A DNA stretch of 28,489 bases from an uncultured Bacteroidales bacterium (GTDB lineage Bacteria > Bacteroidota > Bacteroidia > Bacteroidales > P3), in NCBI GenBank assembly GCA_937906975.1, contig CALCUN010000018.1, forward strand, positions 1 through 28,489, in the 5' to 3' direction. Of this stretch, positions 14,363 through 21,001 are shown in pieces. The notes under the pieces were generated by a model. That model ran no database searches, was not told where the DNA came from, and was given only the letters and a program-made list of their open reading frames with translations. Made by a program: the position numbers and the translations under genes. Every line of letters starts with the position of its first letter. Positions within the stretch are counted from its first letter, which is position 1.

Positions 14363-16534
14363 ATGAAAAGAATATTTTTGGTATTGTTTACATTTCTACT
14401 ATCAACTGTAAGCGCACAAACAACCTTTACAAAAGATGGATTGACATATCAAACAATTTCAGAAAGCGAAGTAAAGATTATTTCTTGTCAAGCAAATGTA
14501 GATTCAATATCTATCCCACAAAGCGTATTAGAAGAAAGCACCAATACAAATTATATAGTTAGTCAAATCAATATATATGCTTTTAAAGATCACAGCAATT
14601 TAGAAAAAATCATTATTCCAAATAGTGTGATTACAATTGGCAATCGTGCTTTTCAAAATTGCAGTGCTTTAAAATCTGTTACTCTACCCGAAAATGCCTC
14701 AATAGTGATGAATGCTTTTGAAAACGCAGGAATACAATATAATATTAACGATATTATTTACGGAGGCGAGGACACAATAAATATAGAGAATTATAGATTT
14801 AATGGCATTGGTTTTATAACATTTCATTTAGGAGACAACTCTTATCAATCAAACTATGCAACTGTTATCACTTGCGACAATAACAAGATAGGCAACGTTA
14901 CCATTCCTGACTCCATACAACACAACAACATCTCATACCCTGTAAATCGCATTAAAGACAAAGCCTTTGACGATTGCAAGAAAATGACCTCCATAACCAT
15001 ACCCTCAACAATAAAATACATAGGGCAAAATGCTTTTTGGAATTGTACAAAATTAAATTCCATAACCTTTCTTTCTCCTGTCCCTCCTACCTTTGGTACT
15101 GACGTATTTAACGGAACACCTTACACTAAAAAACTTAATATTCCTTTTGGAAGCGATTATAGTTTTTTGACAGGCGAATACATTTTTGCAAAAACAAATT
15201 ATTTAATACAAGAAAACGAAACAAAAACCTTAGAAACAGATTTCACAATTACCAATAAAATAGGACTAATCAATAAAGGAGTATTAATAATCCCTTACGG
15301 AAAACAACTAATCGATACAACACAAGAAAACATTGAAGGAATTGTAGAGGTACAAACAGACATACTATCCGATTCCCTATGGCATTTTGTAGGAGCGCCC
15401 TTTTCGCCTTACAAATTAGAAGCAATCAAACCCGGCTCACGAGACGTATCTGTTTCAACCTTTGATTACACAACAGGAAATTGGGATACAAATTGGGCAA
15501 GCATTGAAACACCAATAGCGAGCGCAGAAGGCTTTCTCTTATGGTCGTTTACACAAGAAGCAACCACCTTTACAAACAAAAAAGAAAACGAATCAGAAAA
15601 TTACAATATAAACAACTCCGATGTAATCATAACAAAAAACCTTTCAACACATCAAGAAGGAGGAAATTGGTTTGCACTCTCAAATCCTTTTACCTTTAAA
15701 TTAGATGTAGGCAAGTTTATTTTAGAAAATAAAGACAAAATACAAGGACAAGACGGCATATATAAAATGGATTCCAATGGAGAATTTCAATATCTCACAC
15801 AAGGAGAAATCAATGTAACTGAAGGATTTTTTGTAAACTACCTCTCACAAGGAGAAGCGGAAGCAATATTCAAAAAAGACCAAAGGCTAACCTCTACAAA
15901 ATCACAAAATGAAAAACAATACATAAGAATAAAAATAAAAGACGAAGACAAAGAATCAGAACTTTTCTTTGCACTAAATCAAAATGCCAATCAAGGATAT
16001 GATATTTATGATGCAAACAAACTTTTTTCGCCAAATCAAACCACAGAGCCTTATTTCCTATTAGATAAAACAGCCTTAGTAAAACAAGAAGTAAATATTT
16101 TGCCATATACAGCCACAATTAACATACGAAACAATCAAAGTAAAGAAATAACACTAAGTGTAGAAAACATACCAGAAGGCATATCAGTATTTTTGCTTGA
16201 TAACGGATATGATGTGAAAATGAATAATGGAGAAAAATACACAACCCGAATAACAGAAGGCGAAAACGCAAATAGATTTCAACTATTAATAAAAAAAGCC
16301 CATAGAATAGAGAGCATAGACTCAGAAGAAATAACAATTGAAAATAAGAATAGAGAAATCACAATACACTCTCCAAACAATAACTTCATAGTAAAAATAT
16401 ACAATACCATAGGGCAAGAAATTTTTTCAACAAAAGAAAGAAACTTCACCTTAGATAAAGCCCTTTCAGGAGCATATTTGATAAAACTACAAAGCAATCG
16501 CAACAGCAAATCAAAGAAAATAATTATTTATTAA
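14363..16534 (+). CDS. BspA-like leucine-rich-repeat protein with type IX secretion sorting domain
   Basis: The 723-residue product has a signal peptide (MKRIFLVLFTFLLSTVSAQ). BspA-type leucine-rich repeats (LRR_5) follow in two groups at about 60-120 and 190-245, with units such as LEKIIIPNSVITIGNRAFQN and MTSITIPSTIKYIGQNAFWN. A long region without a recognised domain (about 270-640) follows. Residues of about 655-723 (ITIHSPNNNFIVKIYNTIGQ, SGAYLIKLQSNRNSKSKKII) match the type A C-terminal sorting domain of T9SS cargo. The protein is therefore expected to be carried across the outer membrane and exposed or released, perhaps for adhesion. The T9SS machinery itself is not in the window. The gene starts 17 bp after the ompA-like terminator, so its promoter must overlap that terminator or it depends on read-through. 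Confidence 0.9.
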   Translation: MKRIFLVLFTFLLSTVSAQTTFTKDGLTYQTISESEVKIISCQANVDSISIPQSVLEESTNTNYIVSQINIYAFKDHSNLEKIIIPNSVITIGNRAFQNCSALKSVTLPENASIVMNAFENAGIQYNINDIIYGGEDTINIENYRFNGIGFITFHLGDNSYQSNYATVITCDNNKIGNVTIPDSIQHNNISYPVNRIKDKAFDDCKKMTSITIPSTIKYIGQNAFWNCTKLNSITFLSPVPPTFGTDVFNGTPYTKKLNIPFGSDYSFLTGEYIFAKTNYLIQENETKTLETDFTITNKIGLINKGVLIIPYGKQLIDTTQENIEGIVEVQTDILSDSLWHFVGAPFSPYKLEAIKPGSRDVSVSTFDYTTGNWDTNWASIETPIASAEGFLLWSFTQEATTFTNKKENESENYNINNSDVIITKNLSTHQEGGNWFALSNPFTFKLDVGKFILENKDKIQGQDGIYKMDSNGEFQYLTQGEINVTEGFFVNYLSQGEAEAIFKKDQRLTSTKSQNEKQYIRIKIKDEDKESELFFALNQNANQGYDIYDANKLFSPNQTTEPYFLLDKTALVKQEVNILPYTATINIRNNQSKEITLSVENIPEGISVFLLDNGYDVKMNNGEKYTTRITEGENANRFQLLIKKAHRIESIDSEEITIENKNREITIHSPNNNFIVKIYNTIGQEIFSTKERNFTLDKALSGAYLIKLQSNRNSKSKKIIIY

Positions 16535-16544
16535 TGCTTTTTTT

Positions 16545-16611
16545 AAATTACTTCTTTGAAGTAGAAGCTCTACTTCTTTAAGGTAATGCTTCTACCTTAA
16601 AGAAGTAATTT
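16545..16611. repeat. Three-way-junction palindrome after the LRR gene
   Basis: An outer stem AAATTACTTC (16545-16554) / GAAGTAATTT (16602-16611) encloses two hairpins. The first is GAAGTAG / CTACTTC (16558-16564 / 16570-16576); the second is TTTAAGGTA / TACCTTAAA (16577-16585 / 16593-16601). The element begins 11 bp after the LRR stop, and a T-rich stretch follows, so it may act as a terminator or mRNA 3'-end stabiliser. Confidence 0.75.
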
Positions 16612-16635
16612 ATTTTCTTTTTTAACAAATAAAAT

Positions 16636-16667
16636 TTTGTACTTAGATAAAGATTACATACCTTTGC
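16636..16667 (+). promoter_or_regulatory. Consensus Bacteroidota promoter
   Basis: TTTG (16636-16639), a 19-nt spacer and TACCTTTGC (16659-16667) form a perfect match to the family consensus, the best in the window. Transcription should start near 16672, about 335 nt before the next gene. Confidence 0.85.
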
Positions 16668-16782
16668 AATCAAGAATTTAACAAAGTAACAAAATGGTTT
16701 AATCCTTAGAAAAGGAGGACAAAAAACAGAAAAAGAATAATTACTATTTAGACTTAGTAAATTTTTTACGACATATAAAAGC

Positions 16783-16946
16783 GTTTTTGCTTATACTTAA
16801 TCGTTTGAAACCTCGAAAATTTCAAATAATCCGTTAAAAGTAAGGCAGTAAACGCTCACGAATAATATCGTGGGCTTTACTTATTTGACGGATTAGGTAG
16901 TTCGAGGACCTCAAACGATGATAAGAAAAAAAGTCCCACGTTTTTT
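16783..16946 (+). ncRNA. Rod-shaped structured RNA, 6S-like ncRNA or regulatory leader
   Basis: The fold is seen by hand pairing. ATCGTTTGA (16800-16808) / TCAAACGAT (16911-16919) is extended outward by CTTA/TAAG and a T/A run. CCTCGAA (16811-16817) / TTCGAGG (16901-16907) comes next, then a bubble of about 10 nt (16818-16827) facing 6 nt (16895-16900). An 11-bp stem follows (16828-16838 / 16884-16894), then an asymmetric loop (8/2 nt). The terminal hairpin has 6 + 8 bp (16847-16861 / 16868-16881, one bulged C) and loop ATAATA. CCCACG and six T end the element. A long rod with a central bubble recalls 6S RNA, including the 6S-Flavo type of Bacteroidota. I cannot confirm this from memory, and a cis-acting leader is equally possible. 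Confidence 0.5.
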
Positions 16947-17007
16947 ATACCTTTAAGTCAAAGAAAGAAAAAACAAATTTAAATTAATAATTAAAAACTT
17001 AAAAATC

Positions 17008-17451
17008 ATGGAAAAAAAATCAAACTTAGGATTGGAAATAATCTATTGGGGATTATTACTTATGACGCTTTATGTATTTCACGGTGCTTTGCATTGGTAT
17101 GGAATGGGAATAGTTGCACTTTGTTTAGTTCCGGTTGGAATTGCCTTAGGAATATGGCAAATAATCAGAGAAAAGAAAGCAGGTGAAAAAATGGCTGTTA
17201 TTATTTTAAACTTTTTAACAAAATTATGCTTATTTACAGGCTTAGTTTTTGTTCAAGAACGTTGGCCAGGAGGTGGAGCATTTATGCTTTTTGCTTTTCT
17301 TCTTTATTTTGTTTCAGTTGCTGTTTCATCTTGCATTGCAGTTTATAAAGAAAGAAATGAAAAGTTGTACATATTATTATTAATAGCAATATTATCGTAT
17401 AGTTTTGGTGCTTTATTTTATAACGTATACGAATTACAAGGATTACAATAA
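17008..17451 (+). CDS. Small hypothetical membrane protein with four predicted TM helices
   Basis: The 147 residues contain four hydrophobic segments. They are roughly 8-28 (LEIIYWGLLLMTLYVFHGAL), 33-50 (IVALCLVPVGIALGIW), 62-105 (two helices around WPGGGAF, probably FLTKLCLFTGLVF and LFAFLLYFVSVAV) and 120-140 (ILLLIAILSYSFGALFY). Short charged loops separate them (REKKAGEK, YKERNEK). No family is recognised. It is the first gene after the structured leader, and its stop shares a base with the next ATG (17451), so the two are translationally coupled. Confidence 0.8.
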   Translation: MEKKSNLGLEIIYWGLLLMTLYVFHGALHWYGMGIVALCLVPVGIALGIWQIIREKKAGEKMAVIILNFLTKLCLFTGLVFVQERWPGGGAFMLFAFLLYFVSVAVSSCIAVYKERNEKLYILLLIAILSYSFGALFYNVYELQGLQ

Positions 17452-17726
17452 TGGATAAAGAAGTAAAAGAACAAAGACCACCTTATACAAGGGCGGTCTT
17501 TATTTTAGGATCCCTTTCTGTTACGATAGGAATTGTGCTTTTCGGTTTATTAGGAATAATAGGCGTAATTTTAGCACGTAAAGGAATTAAGGCTTTTGAA
17601 GAAAATCCAGGATTATATTCTATGAAAGGCTATAAAACTCTAACAAGAGGCTTCTATATGTCTGTAATCGGAAGTACTTGGGTGCTTATGTTAATTATAT
17701 TGCCTTTAATCAATTTATTTGATTAA
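17451..17726 (+). CDS. Small hypothetical membrane protein with two TM helices
   Basis: The 91-residue product has a charged N-terminus (MDKEVKEQRPPYTRAV) and two hydrophobic hairpin helices (about 17-42, VFILGSLSVTIGIVLFGLLG onward, and 70-88, MSVIGSTWVLMLIILPLI). Between them ARKGIKAFEENPGLYSMKGY resembles the linker of Bacteroidota 'CCC motif' or DUF4190-type membrane proteins. The cysteine triplet itself is absent, so this assignment is weak. It overlaps the previous gene by one base, and the next gene starts 18 bp later. Confidence 0.75.
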   Translation: MDKEVKEQRPPYTRAVFILGSLSVTIGIVLFGLLGIIGVILARKGIKAFEENPGLYSMKGYKTLTRGFYMSVIGSTWVLMLIILPLINLFD

Positions 17727-17744
17727 CGAATAAAGCATAAACTT

Positions 17745-18146
17745 ATGCATGGAAAAACAAAAAGGGTTGGTTACATCTTTTTATCGCTCGCAATAGTAGT
17801 GGTGTCTTTGATAATATTTCAAATAGTTGCTCAAATAGATGCTCTTGATGAATATGAAAGTTATATTTCAATGCTTTTAGCCTTAGGTACGGGCTTATTG
17901 TTGAGATATGTATTTAAAAGATACTGTAAACGACTTAATAGAAAAGATGAAACATACGAAATTATTTCAAAAGAAGAGAGAAAGGCTCTCTTAACATTGA
18001 TAATTTTATTTGTAACCCTTGCAATAGCGATGTTTTCAATTATAAATTTTCAAAATGATATGTTTTTGACTTTTGTAGTTTTGATTTTCATCTTGGTTAT
18101 TGCTGGGGGACTTATTTTTAGATTATGGATTAAAGACCAAAAATAA
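17745..18146 (+). CDS. Small hypothetical membrane protein with four TM helices
   Basis: The 133 residues show two pairs of hydrophobic helices, at about 8-27 and 41-56 and then at 84-102 and 108-127. The pairs are separated by a charged loop (RYCKRLNRKDETYEIISKEE). No domain is recognised. The gene continues the run of tiny membrane proteins. The M16 protease gene follows after 35 bp with no visible promoter in the gap, so all four may share one transcript. Confidence 0.78.
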   Translation: MHGKTKRVGYIFLSLAIVVVSLIIFQIVAQIDALDEYESYISMLLALGTGLLLRYVFKRYCKRLNRKDETYEIISKEERKALLTLIILFVTLAIAMFSIINFQNDMFLTFVVLIFILVIAGGLIFRLWIKDQK

Positions 18147-18181
18147 TTAAATATATTTATTAACAAACAAATTTAAAGAGT

Positions 18182-21001
18182 ATGAAGAGAAAAATATTCT
18201 CATTATTGTTGTTGTGCTTGATGTTTAGCACGACTATGTTTGCTCAAAATAAAGAGATTCAACTTAATCTTAATGAGCAAATAGAATTAAACGAAACAGT
18301 ACGTACAGGAAAGTTGGAAAACGGATTGACGTATTTTGTAAAATCAAACAAAAAGCCTGAAAATCTTATTGAATTTCGTCTTGCAGTGAATGCAGGCTCT
18401 GTTTTAGAAGAAGATAATCAAGTTGGATTGGCTCACTTCTTGGAACACATGGGCTTTAATGGTTCAAAACATTTTCCAGGTAACACAATGGACGATGAAA
18501 CTAAAAAGGCGGGTTCGTGGAATAATGCTTATACAAGTTTTGATGAGACTGTGTATATGATAAACTTGCCAAAAGAACATCTTGACTTAGGTTTGAAAGT
18601 TTTAGACTCGTGGGCGTACGGAATGTTGCTTACAGGAGAAGAAATTGACAAAGAAAGAGGTGTGATTATTGAGGAATGGAGACGTAGTCAAGGTGGAGAA
18701 GAAAGAATGTGGAATGAAATAAAGAAGAAAATGTTGCAAGGTTCAAAATATGCTGATAGAATGCCTATTGGAACTTTGGAAAATCTTCAAAATTTTAAAT
18801 ATTCTGACATTAGAAGTTTCTATGAAAAATGGTATAATTCCGATAATATGGCTGTGATTATTGTTGGAGATTTCAATATTGACTCAATGGAGCAAAAGGT
18901 TGTTGATTATTTTAGAATGTCTCCAAAGACTTGCACTCAAACACAAAGACCATACATTGCTGTACCTGATAATAAAGAACCTATTATAGCTATTGCAAGT
19001 GATAAAGAGGCAACAAGCACAAGTATAGAATTGTATTACAAACACCCTTCTAAGGATGTTAAAACAATTGCTGATTTTCGTGAACAACATTTAGTACATG
19101 GTTTGTTTGAAGTAATGTTTAATGATCGTCTTCAAGAAATTTCTGAAAAGAAATCTTGTCCTTATATGTATTCATACGCATACTATGGCGGTTTTTATGC
19201 TCGTAATCATTCTGCTTATACAACACGGATTTCTGCAAAAGAAGGAAAATTAATGGAATCCTTAGAATTGGTAATGTTAGAAAATAGAAGATTGCAACAA
19301 CACGGCTTTTTACAATCGGAGCTTGATAGAGCAAAAGATGAATTGTTGGAATCATACGATAGAAGTGCAAAAGAGGAATCAAAAACCAATAGTAGCAGTT
19401 TCGCAGATAGGTTAGTGTATTATTTTCTTGAAAACGAACCAATGCCAAGTGCAGATAAGAAAAACGAATGGGCAAAAGCGTTAATGGAAGATATTACTTT
19501 GGAAGAAGTAAATGCTCTTATTTCAAAATGGATTACAGAAGAAAATTTCGTTTGCACTATCACAATGCCAGAAAAGAAAGGTATTAAAGTGCCAACAGAA
19601 GAAAATGTGTTGAAACTTATTGAAAAATGTAAGAAAGCAAGTACAAAACCTTGGATTGATAATGTTAAAACAGAGCCTTTCCTTGCACAAGAGCCAAAAG
19701 GTGGTAAGGTTGTAAGTCAAAATAAGAATGAAAAATTCGATTACACAGAATATACTCTTTCAAATGGTGCAAAAGTAATCTTAAAGAAAACAAACCACCA
19801 AAATGATCAAATCTTAACTCGTGCAGAATCAAAAGGAGGAAACTCATTGTATGAAGATAAAGATATGATGAATGTTGATTTCGCTTCAAGTATAGTAAAT
19901 TCGAGTGGAATCGGTACATACGACAACACTCAATTAATGAAATTTATGAAGGGTAAGTCTTTTGGTTTATATTCTTATATTTCTAATATTAAAGAAGTAA
20001 TAGAGGGAGGTTGTGCACCAAAAGATTTTGAAACTCAATTGCAATATTTTTATTTAGTCTTTACTGCTCCAAGAATAGATAAAGAGGTTTTAGCAAGCGA
20101 AGTAGATAAATTGAAAAGTCAAATCAGTATGATGAAAAATGATCCTGAGTCTATTTTGTATGAAAAGCAATATAAGGCTATGTATCCAAATGATAAGCGT
20201 AATATATACATACCTACTGAGGCTCAAATAAAGGAATTGAATACTGATAAGATGTTGAAAATATTCAAAGAACGTTTCTCTGATGCTTCTGACTTTACTT
20301 TCACTTTCGTAGGTAATATTGATGAAAAAACAATGTTGCCTTTGATTGAAAAATATATTGGTGGACTTCCTTCTTCTAATGGTAAAAATGCAGAAATGTG
20401 GAAAGATCGTTCGCCTGATTTTGCAAAGGGTGTTGTAGATGAAACAGTTTATGTGGGAGAAGCTGAAAAAGGTATAACAACTATCGAATTTGAACATGAG
20501 TTTGATTATAACAATGATCGTTTGGCAACAGATGCTTTGAGCGAAGTTTGTTATAATAAATTATTTGAAACAATTCGTGAAGAATTAAGTGGAACGTATT
20601 CGCCTTCATTCTATTTGAGTTATTCTAAATATCCAAAATCAGAATTATATGCTTCATATAATCTTGATTGCAACCCAAATACAATAGATCAACTTACACA
20701 AGCTACTTTTAAAGTTTTTGATAAAATTATTTCAGAAGGTATTTCTGAGGAAGATTTAATTAAAGCAAAAGAAACTTTGATATTAAATAGAAAGAAAAGT
20801 GTAGAAAACAATTATTTTTGGTTAAATCAAATTTTAGGAAGTAGGTTTAATGGATATGAAATGCAAACTTTGGAAGAATATACTGCTGCGGTAAATGCTT
20901 TGACAGTAGAAGATATTAAAAAGGTTGCAGAAAAATATCTAAAACACGATGAGTATGTAAGAGTATCTCTTAAACCTGCTGCTATGAAACCTGCAAAATA
21001 G
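18182..21001 (+). CDS. Secreted M16-family zinc metalloprotease (insulinase/pitrilysin type)
   Basis: The 939-residue protein has a signal peptide (MKRKIFSLLLLCLMFSTTMF, then AQ) and is expected in the periplasm. The inverted zinc motif HFLEH is at 85-89 (catalytic Glu88), and the third ligand is probably Glu165 in ERGVIIEEW, about 76 residues on as expected. YTSFDETVYMINLP fits the active half. The C-terminal half (about 520-939) repeats the M16 fold without the zinc motif, as is normal for the long form. Such proteases degrade peptides; the substrate here is unknown. A bidirectional terminator follows. Confidence 0.93.
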   Translation: MKRKIFSLLLLCLMFSTTMFAQNKEIQLNLNEQIELNETVRTGKLENGLTYFVKSNKKPENLIEFRLAVNAGSVLEEDNQVGLAHFLEHMGFNGSKHFPGNTMDDETKKAGSWNNAYTSFDETVYMINLPKEHLDLGLKVLDSWAYGMLLTGEEIDKERGVIIEEWRRSQGGEERMWNEIKKKMLQGSKYADRMPIGTLENLQNFKYSDIRSFYEKWYNSDNMAVIIVGDFNIDSMEQKVVDYFRMSPKTCTQTQRPYIAVPDNKEPIIAIASDKEATSTSIELYYKHPSKDVKTIADFREQHLVHGLFEVMFNDRLQEISEKKSCPYMYSYAYYGGFYARNHSAYTTRISAKEGKLMESLELVMLENRRLQQHGFLQSELDRAKDELLESYDRSAKEESKTNSSSFADRLVYYFLENEPMPSADKKNEWAKALMEDITLEEVNALISKWITEENFVCTITMPEKKGIKVPTEENVLKLIEKCKKASTKPWIDNVKTEPFLAQEPKGGKVVSQNKNEKFDYTEYTLSNGAKVILKKTNHQNDQILTRAESKGGNSLYEDKDMMNVDFASSIVNSSGIGTYDNTQLMKFMKGKSFGLYSYISNIKEVIEGGCAPKDFETQLQYFYLVFTAPRIDKEVLASEVDKLKSQISMMKNDPESILYEKQYKAMYPNDKRNIYIPTEAQIKELNTDKMLKIFKERFSDASDFTFTFVGNIDEKTMLPLIEKYIGGLPSSNGKNAEMWKDRSPDFAKGVVDETVYVGEAEKGITTIEFEHEFDYNNDRLATDALSEVCYNKLFETIREELSGTYSPSFYLSYSKYPKSELYASYNLDCNPNTIDQLTQATFKVFDKIISEGISEEDLIKAKETLILNRKKSVENNYFWLNQILGSRFNGYEMQTLEEYTAAVNALTVEDIKKVAEKYLKHDEYVRVSLKPAAMKPAK

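Follow-up and report, generated by a model that had tools for sequence, protein, structure and literature searches.

We describe a leader RNA that occurs widely and whose double fold is like that of an attenuator, an identification that sequence comparison supports well. It was noticed in a 28,489-nucleotide stretch of DNA from an uncultured Bacteroidales bacterium (the window), where it would form a long rod-shaped hairpin upstream of a gene for a small membrane protein. We lean towards reading the rod as a 5' leader RNA acting in cis, with the following gene controlled through transcription attenuation, and the candidate attenuator may possibly also be riboswitch-like. A broader model, which we put forward tentatively, is that switching leader RNAs of this class occur throughout the phylum, in some species with tens of copies in each genome. 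Strand exchange between the rod's tip and its foot would let one signal reach a wide accessory regulon (surface proteins, SusC-type receptors, restriction and other defence), and the stems would be replaced as complementary blocks from copy to copy. Should the switch prove real, surface and defence genes in much of the Bacteroidota would be under a single class of RNA, and one could look directly for its signal in a phylum that is prominent in the gut.

Structure and extent of the rod

The preliminary description, made from the sequence alone, had placed a rod with five nested stems, and with pairing far beyond chance, at positions 16783-16946. The five in-register stems (about 9, 7, 11, 6 and 8 bp) and the hexaloop are present, and this part folds at -50.5 kcal/mol against -28.7 +/- 4.0 kcal/mol for shuffled sequences (z -5.4; none of 200 as good). 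The complementary strand folds almost as well (z -5.1), so that the strand is not fixed by folding alone; the plus strand is the conserved one, scoring 174.1 bits against 21.5 bits for its complement when the relatives' model was run on the window. An outer stem, in which GACAUAUAAAAGCGU pairs with ACGUUUUUUAUACC, had been missed, and the element is for that reason longer than was described, a single hairpin spanning about 16770-16952 (Table 1).

In an alignment of 100 relatives, the outer helices 1-4 are paired in 64 to 81%, stem 1 (helix 8) in 97.2% with double changes at 8 of its 9 pairs, stem 2 (helix 9, 7 bp) in 99.7% with double changes at 7 of 7, and stem 3 (helix 11) in 92.5% with double changes at 10 of 10. 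The reported 10/6 bubble, which lies between the second and third stems, is for the most part a bulge on the 5' side, with a conserved patch, AUUU:AGGU (helix 10), that is paired in 91.4% of cells. What had been taken for an 8/2 loop turned out to be the lower, weakly paired part of the apical hairpin.

Table 1. Features of the rod and its surroundings, in window coordinates
Feature	Position	Strand	Partner or opposite side	Basis or remark
Putative promoter, TTTG-N19-TACCTTTG	16636..16666	+		Pattern match
Minimal upstream ORF, ATG GTT TAA (predicted)	16694..16702	+		Sequence reading
Whole structured element (rod)	16770..16952	+		Models R1 and R2 (174.1 and 164.7 bits); covariation
Outer stem, 5' strand	16770..16784	+	16938-16951, U-run included	
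Stem 1, 5' strand	16800..16808	+	16911-16919	Sequence variable, length kept
Internal loop AA/ACC, conserved AA	16809..16810	+	16908-16910	Alignments
Stem 2, 5' strand	16811..16817	+	16901-16907	
Conserved 5' bulge, AATTTCA..	16818..16826	+	Faces GGTAG, 16896-16900	Alignments
Stem 3, 5' strand	16827..16837	+	16885-16895	
Strand A of apical hairpin, ACGCTCACGA	16852..16861	+		A:B duplex energies
Strand B, CGTGGGCTTT	16869..16878	+	A or, exclusively, C	
Segment C, AAAGTCCCACG	16930..16940	+	Rival partner of B	B:C duplex energies
U-run 3' of C, intrinsic-terminator-like	16941..16946	+		Abuts C in relatives
First downstream gene, 147-aa membrane protein, no family assigned	17008..17451	+		

Covariation and turnover of the stems

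Compensatory changes, which the preliminary description had proposed as a check, were abundant in both alignments of relatives. Pairing was kept in 480 double-change cells among 44 relatives, compared with 136 after shuffling and at most 90 with partners slid by 1 to 3 columns, and in 1405 among 100 relatives, compared with 440 and at most 264, in alignments that were fitted to the model's structure and so favour it, the shuffle tests here and the permutation test below ignoring relatedness. In spite of this fitting and kinship, so many double changes, and so few after sliding, make the structure hard to doubt. The rod has a conserved structured core with covarying helices, as is looked for in a riboswitch; its stems vary in sequence while hardly varying in length, and its internal loops are constant.

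Between copies that precede like genes, stem changes numbered 166 double, 14 single and 25 broken (25 pairs of copies, which share members), and all pairs of 16 copies from one genome gave 1142 double, 45 single and 200 broken. Two copies in a related metagenome-assembled genome (MAG), G001, are identical in 164 of 165 bases downstream and in 70 of 79 just upstream; in the 26 core pairs of these rods (L006, L007), 12 are the same, 10 are doubly changed, 1 is singly changed and 3 are broken. The pattern resembles that of blocks being exchanged, entire rods at a time, between copies, and such exchange would explain it. Stems that change almost only in complementary steps within one genome offer a testable case of paralogous RNA diversification.

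Relatives and copy number

A search with the 147-aa protein led to four contigs of a buffalo caecum MAG, Bacteroidales bacterium isolate RGIG7394. Two of these contigs end, and two begin, inside a near-identical start of the 17008-type gene, which is the mark of a repeat, and copies of this gene family follow different rods: upstream of the two contig ends lies a rod with the same loops and different stems. A DNA search of the RGIG7394 genome returned 22 matches; 17 of them were used as full copies, and unlike genes follow these. Covariance models were built from 18 rows (R1) and 44 rows (R2). R1 found 19 matches in the RGIG7394 genome, two of them apparently contig-end pieces of one copy, and had matches in the MAG's family (160 of 190 genomes) and in its order (131 of 393 drawn); R2 had matches in 44 of 395 genomes drawn from the phylum. 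These counts are lower bounds, since 6 to 14 candidates were scored per genome in the family, order and phylum scans. R2 further matched 13 of 60 genomes from the class of one phylum-scan genome, including that genome and three already seen, and none of 199 genomes from the phylum to which a Ruminococcus bromii genome belongs. Fuller searches of six genomes yielded 13, 13, 14, 15, 25 and 66 matches.

The element is also found on plasmid pB3-10 of Rhizosphaericola mali (Chitinophagaceae), upstream of a hypothetical protein (L234, 3488-3657); in the plasmid DNA search, one query element had no match and another matched one record. A further copy, on viral contig IMGVR_UViG_3300001686_000010 (L130, 852-1025), precedes a small protein that looks secreted. 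This was the only match in an exact pattern search of viral contigs, no phage record held the window's element, and no relative of the 17008 protein was confirmed in viral contigs; the view of the rod as a phage feature in general was rejected on the single viral-contig match and the empty result for phage records.

A mobile repeat (MITE-like or a hairpin element) landing near promoters would account for as many as 66 matches in a genome, a multiplicity in keeping with such elements, for contigs that end in the element, and for the viral and plasmid copies. Its context, however, is fixed between promoter and gene, its loops are constant while its stems are compensated, and similar genes retain it in different genomes, and we regard this origin as very doubtful.

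Genomic position and downstream genes

The rod had been held to explain a gene-free gap of 473 bp. It does so in part, but the gap also contains the promoter of Table 1 and a second, near-perfect hairpin (16543-16615). This hairpin lies directly 3' of a BspA-type LRR gene (14363-16534), is terminator-like by prediction, and is likely to be the terminator of that gene. The promoter pattern fits what we take to be the consensus of the Bacteroidota type, and its position would put the transcription start near 16673. At 16712-16719 there is a Shine-Dalgarno-like sequence, AAGGAGGA, with no start codon closely behind it, and several type-1 copies in G001 are alike in this. The first downstream gene is followed, up to 21001, by more ORFs of unassigned family and an M16 peptidase.

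The promoter motif was counted in 110 records, comprising one copy from each of 108 genomes, the window and one viral contig; 107 have enough upstream sequence. In 84 of the 107, the -7 motif TAnnTTTG occurs in the 150 nt that precede the rod (control, 0.11 per 150 bp), and 86 of 93 such places are 51-120 nt upstream. With 19 records from the phylum scan added, a same-strand ORF (at least 50 aa, or shorter where a contig end cuts it) starts within 400 nt 3' of the rod in 124 of 129 records, at a median of 47 nt, and a divergent ORF lies on the other side in 68. A promoter motif upstream and a same-strand ORF downstream point to a 5' leader, a position that is supported as far as sequence tells.

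The same promoter motif, together with the U-run, could delimit an independent sRNA that acts in trans, the gene being a neighbour or reached by leaky read-through, and multi-copy paralogous sRNAs such as FopS are known in Bacteroides from the accessible part of PMC11697453. We consider this unlikely, given the imbalance between 124 records with a same-strand ORF and 68 with a divergent one, and given that no second TAnnTTTG-type promoter was seen between rod and gene in the window. The preliminary description had offered, as an alternative to 6S RNA, a leader RNA for the operon at 17008-21001. Covariation, promoter and gene support a leader RNA, but one that belongs to this operon in particular was rejected, as relatives precede many unlike genes.

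Among 120 downstream ORFs, which were chosen by length and some of which may be wrong, Pfam gave ResIII (9), SNF2 (6), PLD-like (6), BspA-type LRR (6), TonB plug (5), carboxypeptidase-regulatory (5), N6 methylases (4), Spi inhibitor (4), C10 peptidase (3) and sigma-70 regions (2), counts that are among the 25 families listed of 83. PADLOC and NCBIfam concur, with HKD plus Snf2 in 6 (proteins that are alike and not independent), type IIG in 3, SusC/RagA in 5 and sigma factors in 2. No common pathway is evident among the 120. A single family of large secreted proteins follows 14 copies in one genome (G186), where 21 of 66 copies were read.

Rival pairings of strand B

Strand B can pair with A at the tip of the rod or, equally well, with C at its foot, which lies immediately beyond stems 1-3 and is followed by a U-run. 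In 100 relatives, the energy of the B:C duplex is -15.9 kcal/mol when C comes from the same copy, -12.3 when it comes from another copy and -6.1 when it is shuffled; the corresponding A:B values are -15.2 with a copy's own strands and -13.0 with those of other copies, and A:C, a negative control, has -4.4 kcal/mol. None of 2000 permutations was as good as the own B:C energy, that is, C covaries with B, although just 43 of 100 copies have an own C that ranks in the best tenth for their B. Every one of the 100 relatives can form eight B:C pairs or more, and in 89 of them C is directly followed by a U-run of 4 or longer. A T-run of at least 6 was found in 98 of 129 records (control, 6.4%), leaving 31 without.

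Two mutually exclusive pairings, one of them running into a U-run, within what is judged a 5' leader from its sequence, are the features of a transcription attenuator. A:B pairing at the tip would leave C free and transcription would continue, B:C pairing beside the U-run would form a terminator, and a binder of the conserved loops (small molecule, protein or RNA) would decide between the two folds. In the window, the energy of the whole fold is -55.6 and that of B:C -13.3; the full rod is far stabler, so a switch would need kinetics or a factor. The U-run takes part in the outer stem too, and the idea that B:C is its sole use was dropped on that account. The A:B hairpin of the window is itself flagged as terminator-like, with the tail TTTACTTATT. 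A pseudoknot that keeps stems 1-3 was weighed, for which the linkers look short (median sum 14 nt). Several of the G001 copies L006-L015 carry an extra 3' segment like TTTGGGACTTGGGC, possibly a third partner, for C, which is missing in the window.

A leader rod that stabilises or processes the mRNA, or that binds an antitermination factor, would do without termination by B:C. It would suit the leader position, the great stability of the rod and the diversity of the accessory genes, and leave the covariation of B with C beside the U-run unexplained; we hold it to be improbable, and prefer attenuation.

Short upstream ORFs like that of the window are frequent. Of the 89 leaders in which a promoter could be recognised, 51 contain an ATG closed within 6 codons (29.6 +/- 4.0 in shuffled leaders), most commonly as ATG-NNN-stop (37 of 64 such starts). 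Starts as such are not enriched (ATG 54, shuffled 58, in the 89 leaders); only their quick closure is. Control triplets closed as quickly gave 38 for TAG against 28.0 shuffled, and 19, 51 and 11 for ATC, AAG and ACG against 16.2, 47.0 and 17.2. These mini-ORFs were not accepted as a universal sensor, because 38 of the 89 leaders are without one and the TAG control also exceeds its shuffles; quick closure could reflect the neutralising of stray starts.

Comparison with known RNAs

Transcription attenuators and riboswitches with terminator platforms are the general kind to which such a leader would belong. The rod resembles them in its leader position, its conserved unpaired core and its two exclusive pairings, one beside a U-run, and differs in that it has no Rfam match and no recognised ligand or aptamer, that its downstream genes share no pathway, and that the exchanged strand is at the far tip of the rod.

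The preliminary description had likened the overall shape to 6S RNA and suggested a search of Rfam. No Rfam 15 family, 6S or other, matches the rod or the window at cut-off; looser thresholds gave weak matches far below it, most of them on the hairpin at 16543-16615, with SpF11 on the rod. 6S-Flavo (RF01685) is likewise a rod-like RNA of Bacteroidota, but does not match at the rods; G001 (a single weak match, away from the rods), G142, G673 and G784 have sub-threshold matches in other places. In place of the large, open-promoter-like bubble of 6S RNA there is the 5'-sided bulge with its paired patch. The likeness therefore comes down to the general shape, a rod with a bulge, against which stand the Rfam result, the multiple copies in each genome and the position in leaders of unlike genes, and we give the 6S identity almost no credence.

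The accessible part of PMC11697453 describes the FopS and GibS sRNAs as trans-acting, with a single-stranded 5' stretch and a terminator hairpin. They too are a paralogous RNA family in one genome, with sigma-ABfr promoters, and differ from the rod in that architecture and in acting in trans.

The survey deposited as PMC8040213 is presumably Fremin and Bhatt 2021. Two palindromic candidates in its accessible part, HMP2_4205 and HMP2_1032 (132 and 106 bp; PMC8040213), are mostly or entirely from Bacteroidetes and have predicted terminators, like the rod, one of them being near TonB genes; compared by description only, they differ from it in length, and could be parts of the rod family. The element is not described in the accessible parts of that survey, of Weinberg 2010 (PMC2864571), of a Flavobacterium psychrophilum transcriptome (PMC9723704), of a 50-genome ncRNA survey (PMC11109978) or of the RbpB/FopS work (PMC11697453). 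Our literature search, with supplements, preprints and most subscription papers outside its coverage, returned no paper plainly describing it, and the word undescribed holds for Rfam 15 and the literature searched only.

Flavo-1 (RF01705) is likewise multi-copy and structured, and shares some of its host genomes with the rod. It was found in 6 of 10 genomes searched, with up to 106 matches (106 in G907, 42 in G590, 41 in G784), and was absent from the searched genomes G001, G101, G186 and G1008. Its 76 positions are unlike the rod in sequence; eight Flavo-1 places had no R2 match, three weak R2 matches lying elsewhere. With no RF01705 match at the rods and a different sequence, its identity with the rod family was rejected. 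At the Flavo-1 places inspected (L239-L242, L245), a variable stem lies between constant ends. At one rod locus (L038), a DUF805b RNA match, at 35.9 bits against a cut-off of 35.6, lies between the rod and the downstream ORF (1449-1484).
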